From Candidatus Cloacimonadota bacterium (GTDB lineage: Bacteria > Cloacimonadota > Cloacimonadia > Cloacimonadales > Cloacimonadaceae): a DNA stretch of 33,645 nucleotides. A program made the translations under genes and the position numbers. The stretch spans positions 1 through 33,645 of the forward strand of contig JAQVIX010000022.1 of NCBI GenBank assembly GCA_028695495.1. The letters run 5' to 3'. Position 1 is the stretch's first letter. Each line of letters begins with the position of its first letter. Below are positions 15,944 to 25,173 of this stretch, piece by piece. The notes beneath the pieces are model-generated. The model was not told the DNA's origin. It ran no database searches and saw only the letters and a list, made by a program, of their open reading frames with translations.

Positions 15944-16132
15944 AAAGCCCCAGCCCTCCTGTTTTTTTTACTCCCAAAAACGCGTTTTTTAGAGTAAAAA
16001 AAACAGGAGGCAGGGGGATAAAAGAAAACCATTAAACCGCATCCATTACCCAGGGTGATCTTGCCAAAAACTCGCAAGCTCCTTTTTGGCGGCGAACACA
16101 CTGGGCTACCTGAACTTTCGTCCCGCTGGGAC
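15944..16132 (-). repeat. Composite palindromic repeat, copy A
   Basis: Read on the minus strand: hairpin GTCCC-AGC-GGGAC (16120-16132), GAAAGTTC, AGGTAGCCCAG, then nested hairpin GCCAAAAA/TTTTTGGC (16063-16070 and 16083-16090) around GGAGCTTGCGAG, closed by CCCTGGGT, a 30-base AT-rich link, then a palindrome core at 15955-16010. The core pairs at 26 of 28 positions (CCTCCTGTTTTTTTTACTC against its complement, centre ACGCGT) and its outer edge is CCCC/GGGGG. The far side of the core (15870-15943) has no second half. The shorter frames that cross it look like artefacts. Confidence 0.88.
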
Positions 16133-21473: not shown

Positions 21474-21585
21474 TAACTAACGAGTTACGAACGTGTTCTT
21501 TGTGTTGTACTGAAATAGGTTTACTCTTTTTTGCAATAGAATTAGCATTGTTAAAGGTGTATTTTTAGGGTTTTCTTTAGGAATT

Positions 21586-21735
21586 GCCAAAATGAGCCTG
21601 CGATATTTTGGGCAAGATAAACCCTGGGTAATTGATGCGTTTTGATGAATATCTTTTATCCTCCATCCCCTCCTCCTTTGTATGCGCAAAATCCGCGGAT
21701 TTTGCGCATACAAAGGAGGAGGGGATGGGGTTTTA
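21586..21735 (+). repeat. Composite palindromic repeat, copy B, with a perfect 66-bp palindrome
   Basis: A nested hairpin GCCAAAAT/ATTTTGGGC (from 21586) encloses GAGCCTGCG, followed by CAAGATAAACCCTGGGT, a link GATGCGTTTTGATGAAT and the core. The core is a palindrome with no mismatch from 21663 to 21728 (33-base arms, no spacer, centre ATCCGCGGAT), bounded by CCATCCCC/GGGGATGG and then GTTTTATT. The upstream AGGTAGC block is missing and the right side beyond 21735 is unrelated apart from a CCCCTAACGGGG hairpin at about 21779. Confidence 0.92.
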
Positions 21736-24458: not shown

Positions 24459-24754
24459 GAGTTTAAATACAGTTTACAAGCCGATTTTCGCATGGTAGCC
24501 CCAAAATACCCAAATATCACAACAACAAAAAATGCCGACCCCCGAAATGTAGGTGCTCATTGCTATGAGCCCGCCGGAATTTCTGCGCAACAGCTAATGA
24601 TTACAGTATAAATTGCGAACGCTTTGTCAAAAGCGGGCGCAAAACATTACGCCCCTACAGTCCCATTTCGTTAGATATCGTGTTTGGTTTTAGGCATTTC
24701 GGGATAGCCACTTCTTTCGACTATACGCAAATGCCAAATATGCCTGCCGAGCTT

Positions 24755-25061
24755 TCCCCGTCAGGGGATAAAGTTTAGGTAGCCCAGGGTGTTCGCCGCC
24801 AAATATGAGCTTGCGAGTATTTGGCAAGAAAAACCCTGGGTGATAGGCATGTTTTGATGAAATCCTTTTTATCCCCCAGCCCCCCTTGTAATTAACGGCA
24901 CAAAACCCGAGGTGTTTTGTGCCGTTAATTACAAGGGGGGCTGGGGTTTTATTTCCTTATTTAAGCGCATACATTTACCTAGGGTGAACTTGAGCAAAAC
25001 TCGCAAGCTCGTTTTGCTCAATAACACCCTGGGCTATCTGAACTGCTGCCCCTGACGGGGC
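24755..25061. repeat. Composite palindromic repeat, copy C: a 307-bp near-symmetric inverted repeat
   Basis: Both halves are present. Left: hairpin TCCCCGTCAGGGGA (24755-24768), TAAAGTTT, AGGTAGCCCAGGGTG, nested hairpin GCCAAATA/TATTTGGC around GAGCTTGCGAG, ACCCTGGGTGATAG, link GTTTTGATGAAAT. Core: 24874-24946, 36-base arms with one mismatch around GAG, outer edge CCCCAGCC/GGCTGGGG. Right, inverted: AGGGTGAACTTGAGCAAAAC, loop CTCGCAAGCTC, GTTTTGCTCA, CACCCTGGGCTATCTGAAC, hairpin GCCCCTGACGGGGC (25048-25061). The flanks 24459-24754 and 25062-25173 show no gene. Confidence 0.92.
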
Positions 25062-25173
25062 AAGGTCACTGTTCAGCTTGAGTTTGAAGCCATTTTGGCT
25101 TGCATTTTCTCTTAATTAGTCCATTGCTTTTCTTTTTTACCCACCACGATCGAACAAACGCCTATAAAGTAAT

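Follow-up and report, generated by a model that had tools for sequence, protein, structure and literature searches.

Between arcC and the end of a minus-strand operon, in a 33,645-nucleotide stretch of a Candidatus Cloacimonadota genome (contig JAQVIX010000022.1, positions 1 to 33,645; hereafter the window), lies a 307-bp near-symmetric inverted repeat (24755-25061), and the question raised by this locus is whether the structure serves the two convergent transcription units that it separates or is there for some other reason. An earlier note had read it as two maintained halves at a classic BIME position that could terminate both units. Our best reading is that the element belongs to a mobile hairpin repeat present in many copies, and is itself a gene-less passenger and not a dedicated terminator. 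More specifically, it is quite probably a non-autonomous REPIN/BIME-like mobile repeat made of two inverted hairpin arrays of a TnpAY1 subclass-1.2-type Y1/HUH transposase system, the movement of which we infer.

The arms, the core and the midpoint (24908-24910) are all found where the repeat had been described. The outer inverted arms (24749-24793/25023-25067) span 45 nt and are 82% complementary, a second pair (24802-24828/24989-25015) spans 27 nt with 78% complementarity, and the core arms (24874-24906/24914-24946) span 33 nt with 100% complementarity around a 7-nt spacer. The element folds strongly on both strands, with -198.7 kcal/mol versus -104.1 +/- 4.6 kcal/mol for shuffled sequences on the + strand (z = -20.5), and z = -15.2 on the - strand.

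The whole follows the order A - B - link1 - C - link2 - B' - A'. The left terminal hairpin A (CCCCGTCAGGGG as read on the + strand; 24756-24767, - strand), which keeps the same position in other copies, is followed by the left half-unit, the NTAG-footed hairpin B (TAGCCCAGGGT..ACCCTGGGT; 24774-24841, + strand; 57.3 bits, E 4.8e-13 with covariance model R1). This hairpin has a GTAG foot (24779-24782), an outer stem in which CCCAGGGT (24783-24790) pairs with ACCCTGGG, an inner stem GCCAAATA/TATTTGGC, and the loop GAGCTTGCGA (24807-24816). Link1, of GATAGGCATGTTTTGATGAAATCCTTTTTATC type (24842-24873, + strand), leads into the core palindrome C (24874-24946), which recurs genome-wide, and link2, of TTTTATTTCCTTATTTAAGCG type (24947-24976, + strand), contains a T-rich tract 3' of the core on the + strand. 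The right half-unit hairpin B is inverted (24977-25042, - strand; R1, 87.3 bits, E 2.1e-21), with an ATAG foot (25034-25037) and an inner stem GAGCAAAAC/GTTTTGCTC, and the right terminal hairpin A' (CCCCTGACGGGG; 25049-25060, + strand) closes the element. The B loop is conserved while the stems vary, and could form tandem G-A mismatches; in two B copies, GCTA stands in its place.

The differences that had been claimed between the halves (TATTTGG versus GTTTTGCTC in the stems, and GTAG versus ATAG ahead of the hairpin) are correct, and since the B halves differ, both a recent duplication and a fold-back can be discounted. A near-palindrome within a fragmented draft assembly does invite the suspicion of an assembly fold-back or of contamination, yet the halves have diverged by 18-29% and many independent copies lie on many contigs with differing flanks; together these exclude a fold-back, and an artefact of either kind is extremely improbable.

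In the 2.7-Mb window genome, the 307-bp query gives 93 alignments, and the exact outer-stem pattern TAGCCCAGGGTN{30,60}CCCTGGGT gives 55 matches versus none for a backward-pattern control. The stretches of this genome that were analysed contain 67 half-units and 12 converging dimers, which are inverted REP-type units at the short, regular spacing typical of REPINs and BIMEs (130-143 bp between the halves in 10 of the 12). Their order is fixed, with a single link1 and a single link2 in most of the complete dimers; half-units are also found singly, dispersed without a partner and with one core. The window itself holds a second B half-unit (16048-16114, - strand; core palindrome 15948-16017) and a partial one (21576-21629, + strand; core palindrome 21663-21728). 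The foot of hairpin B varies by copy (GTAG, ATAG or CTAG), and the inner-stem arms co-vary, pairing with their own partners at -12.4 kcal/mol versus -9.6 kcal/mol for swapped arms (0/5000 permutations). The converging dimers and the co-varying inner stems bear out the view that both halves are maintained, as a BIME-like pair. Contigs C33 and C73 of this genome (G000) end inside these repeats, which therefore probably break the assembly.

The position between the convergent arcC and minus-strand operon, the strong hairpins, and the tract TTTTATTT that follows the core on the + strand would all suit a dedicated bidirectional terminator, or a stabiliser of mRNA 3' ends between convergent units, kept by selection on RNA structure. 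We nevertheless regard this as improbable. A bidirectional terminator has a hairpin and a U tract on both strands, whereas here the T-rich tract is on the + strand only and the - strand has none after the core. Nor is the element confined to convergent junctions, as 45 element clusters lie at 11 convergent, 20 tandem and 14 divergent gene pairs, compared with 12, 67 and 15, respectively, for other neighbouring gene pairs at the same loci (both counts from a crude ORF caller). The clusters are intergenic (1 of 53 lies inside an ORF), and the ~66-nt unit has a high copy number.

The corresponding junction in a congener (G004, a syntenic sister species only ~70% identical) has an ordinary hairpin and lacks the element; it measures ~100 bp between arcC and the gene for a 63-aa protein, versus 715 bp in the window, so that the two differ by about 0.6 kb (element plus other repeats), through gain here or loss in the congener. 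A scan for terminators and promoters returned no site at the element or its core, which is a weak test given the 20-pair stem limit of the scan, and an Rfam search returned nothing above the gathering score, with only sub-threshold miRNA look-alikes at the core. The suggestion that the palindrome terminates both convergent units is thus unsupported in view of the tandem and divergent locations, the one-sided T-rich tract and the short sister junction, though arcC transcripts may be terminated by the element as a side effect.

The junction contains further repeats. Upstream of the element lies a separate MITE-like repeat of ~216 bp (LF, 24494-24709) with imperfect terminal inverted repeats GGTAGCCCCAAAAT/ATTTCGGGATAGCC; copies of ~216-250 bp with GGCTGTCC..GGACAGCC-type ends occur at many loci of the same genome (e.g. 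L054, about 2590-2832), independently of the element. On the other side, a module with a GAAGCC..GGCTT hairpin (RF, 25068-25146, + strand) often adjoins A; the modules adjoining A are themselves different repeats. At 172-371 of the window, two 81-nt direct copies, 98% identical, start 119 bp apart. Were the element instead a MITE derived from an ordinary DDE transposon, unrelated to Y1 transposases and ending in A as terminal inverted repeat, it would likewise be multicopy and intergenic with inverted-repeat ends, and would have a MITE-like neighbour in LF. However, A is self-complementary and forms a hairpin of its own, unlike a simple terminal repeat, half-units also lie scattered singly, and such arrays stand at Y1 genes in several phyla, all of which makes a DDE origin quite unlikely.

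A repeat of the Y1 transposase system remains the preferred reading, and the window genome has one short-type Y1 transposase gene (C68:4422-4769). This gene is N-terminally broken where a copy of LF lies, and its product has lost the N-terminus and retains DHIH, WQ and YIRNQVEHH. An A-B-C array is located ~90 bp from the 3' end of the gene, in direct A-B-C orientation versus inverted C'-B'-A' at genes elsewhere. The window genome, at 155 contigs and 95% completeness, yielded no intact gene of this type; given the contigs that end inside repeats, one may have been lost or may fall in a gap of the assembly. It is likely that the family was spread in this genome by an intact copy of the C68-type gene. 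A second Y1 transposase (L087, G000:C80:12976-16221; 190 aa, NHVH) adjoins tandem GGCATCTTGCCGC-type repeats and apparently represents a separate REP-like system; a link between the element and this gene was rejected, the gene being of another type with repeats of its own.

Genomes of the window's own phylum, selected independently of the repeat, provide a broader comparison. A protein-profile search identified proteins of this type in 66 of 125 genomes. At the best 29 loci with usable flanks, repeat arrays, direct or inverted, flank the gene on both sides in 26, versus 0 of 105 control sites, these controls being random sites and not matched transposase loci. Direct arrays were seen at 18 and inverted arrays at 16 of the 29 loci, some having both; among the 29 is L258, the remnant gene of the window genome itself, which owes its score to LF copies and not to A-B-C. 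Hairpin density near these genes is 5.5 per 900 bp versus 1.1 in controls, and TAG-footed hairpins are enriched near subclass-1.2 genes (27/141 versus 9/202, p = 2e-5). In a genome of the window's order (G012), a TTTAGCCCAGGGT..ACCCTGGGT hairpin is inverted on both sides of the gene and has 29 DNA matches in the genome; within the phylum, the exact B outer stem is shared with this genome only. Vertical inheritance of the family within the genus was considered and rejected, since across 107 genomes of the order the covariance model of the half-unit (R1) detected the B family in that of the window alone, under strict filters that let slip the shorter B of G012, recovered by a pattern search.

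A looser form of the B pattern was scanned in named genomes, a set from which the window's own genome may be absent. Among the matches listed, it occurs in MAGs of at least eight other phyla (Chlamydiae, Planctomycetes, Acidobacteria, Gammaproteobacteria, Lentisphaerae, Bacteroidetes, Gemmatimonadetes and Sumerlaeota), the listed Planctomycetes matches being Phycisphaerales, Pirellulales and Gemmataceae. In these matches an A-type hairpin usually stands ahead of B and a further hairpin, C, often comes after it, and PF01797 (Y1) genes are present in 15 of the 16 repeat-bearing genomes of other phyla among them. In Sumerlaeota locus L214 the order is A-B-C, ATG, gene, stop, C'-B'-A', and at L207, L212, L215, L216 and L224 B hairpins flank the transposase gene on both sides. 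Inverted flanking repeats accompany 19 of 21 genes of subclass-1.2 type versus 3 of 7 Y1 genes outside this type. A Phycisphaerales genome (G108) has, alongside the gene-carrying form, inverted dimers of about 300 bp that lack the gene and follow the same plan as the one in the window. The Sumerlaeota MAG of locus L180 (G122) has 43 B copies that hardly differ from the copy adjoining its transposase gene, which suggests recent spread. A transposase gene between copies of a genome-dispersed repeat, the arrangement that defines a REPtron, is thus seen in G012, G108 and G122; in the window genome, the broken gene lies beside one array.

Among known systems, TnpAY1 subclass 1.2 is defined by DH[IV]H, WQ and Y---Q--HH in about 148 aa, with no REPs listed and a distribution mainly in Cyanobacteria/Bacteroidetes (Quentin et al. 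2018, PMC6006769). The array-flanked proteins described here carry this signature, the assignment being by motif match alone, and have in common with the subclass DH[IV]H, WQ, YIxxQxxHH, a length of ~150 aa and a low copy number. In contrast to the published set, given as 'no' for REP, the genes here are flanked by hairpin arrays and occur in several further phyla. A search of later literature on the subclass, thin on subscription journals and preprints, found none; a search by repeat sequence gave unrelated matches only, and one for Cloacimonas together with repeats found no paper.

GTAG-tagged REPs are palindromes of 20-40 nt with high intergenic copy number and an unpaired GTAG at the 5' foot. 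Like REPINs and BIMEs (E. coli Y/Z REPs, Pseudomonas REPINs; PMC3116915, PMC3733652), the present repeats are dispersed intergenic hairpins in inverted pairs, with (G/A/C)TAG at the hairpin base and copies flanking a Y1 transposase gene. Unlike them, they consist of ~66-nt B units plus separate A and C hairpins in ~300-bp dimers, have an NTAG and not strictly GTAG foot, are not depleted between divergent genes, and are associated with a class 1 protein and not a class 2 protein (RAYT); the Y---NP motif of TnpAREP/RAYT (class 2) is absent from the proteins here. The IS200/IS605 elements (IS608, ISDra2), which leave as an ssDNA circle and insert site-specifically, also have subterminal hairpins, and ISDra2- and IS608-type transposases are the nearest solved protein relatives; the present system differs in having up to three hairpins per side, an inverted arrangement and dispersed gene-less copies. 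Measured against the NCBIfam IS200 cut-off, two of three proteins fall slightly short and the third slightly exceeds it. The TIRtrons (TIRYT; Di Nocera et al. 2013, PMC3733652) likewise have a Y1 gene with long inverted flanking repeats that are also dispersed, but their proteins are mostly subclass 2.1 with Y---NP, whereas those here have Y---Q--HH.

By analogy with IS200/IS605 and TnpAREP enzymes, a route of movement may be proposed. In the gene-carrying form, inverted A-B-C and C'-B'-A' arrays bracket the ~150-aa transposase gene; in the form seen in the window, the gene is absent and the C arms meet as the central palindrome. When the DNA becomes single-stranded, as lagging-strand template or during repair, the NTAG-footed B hairpins would fold, the transposase would recognise the foot and nick there via its catalytic tyrosine, and the dimer, excised or copied as single-stranded DNA, would be rejoined elsewhere in intergenic DNA.

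Extending this to the family, we lean towards the view that TnpAY1 subclass 1.2, described without REPs or insertion-sequence features, is a widespread REP-like system, in which cognate A-B-C arrays with an NTAG foot form gene-less inverted dimers across many phyla, the repeat sequence being species-specific and the foot and plan being kept. This view would give candidate DNA targets to a transposase group left without any by a family-wide survey, and would explain a recurrent intergenic motif of uncultured bacteria, TAGCCCAGGGTG..ACCCTGGGT. It also points to genomes suited to testing repeat movement, in particular the Sumerlaeota MAG G122.
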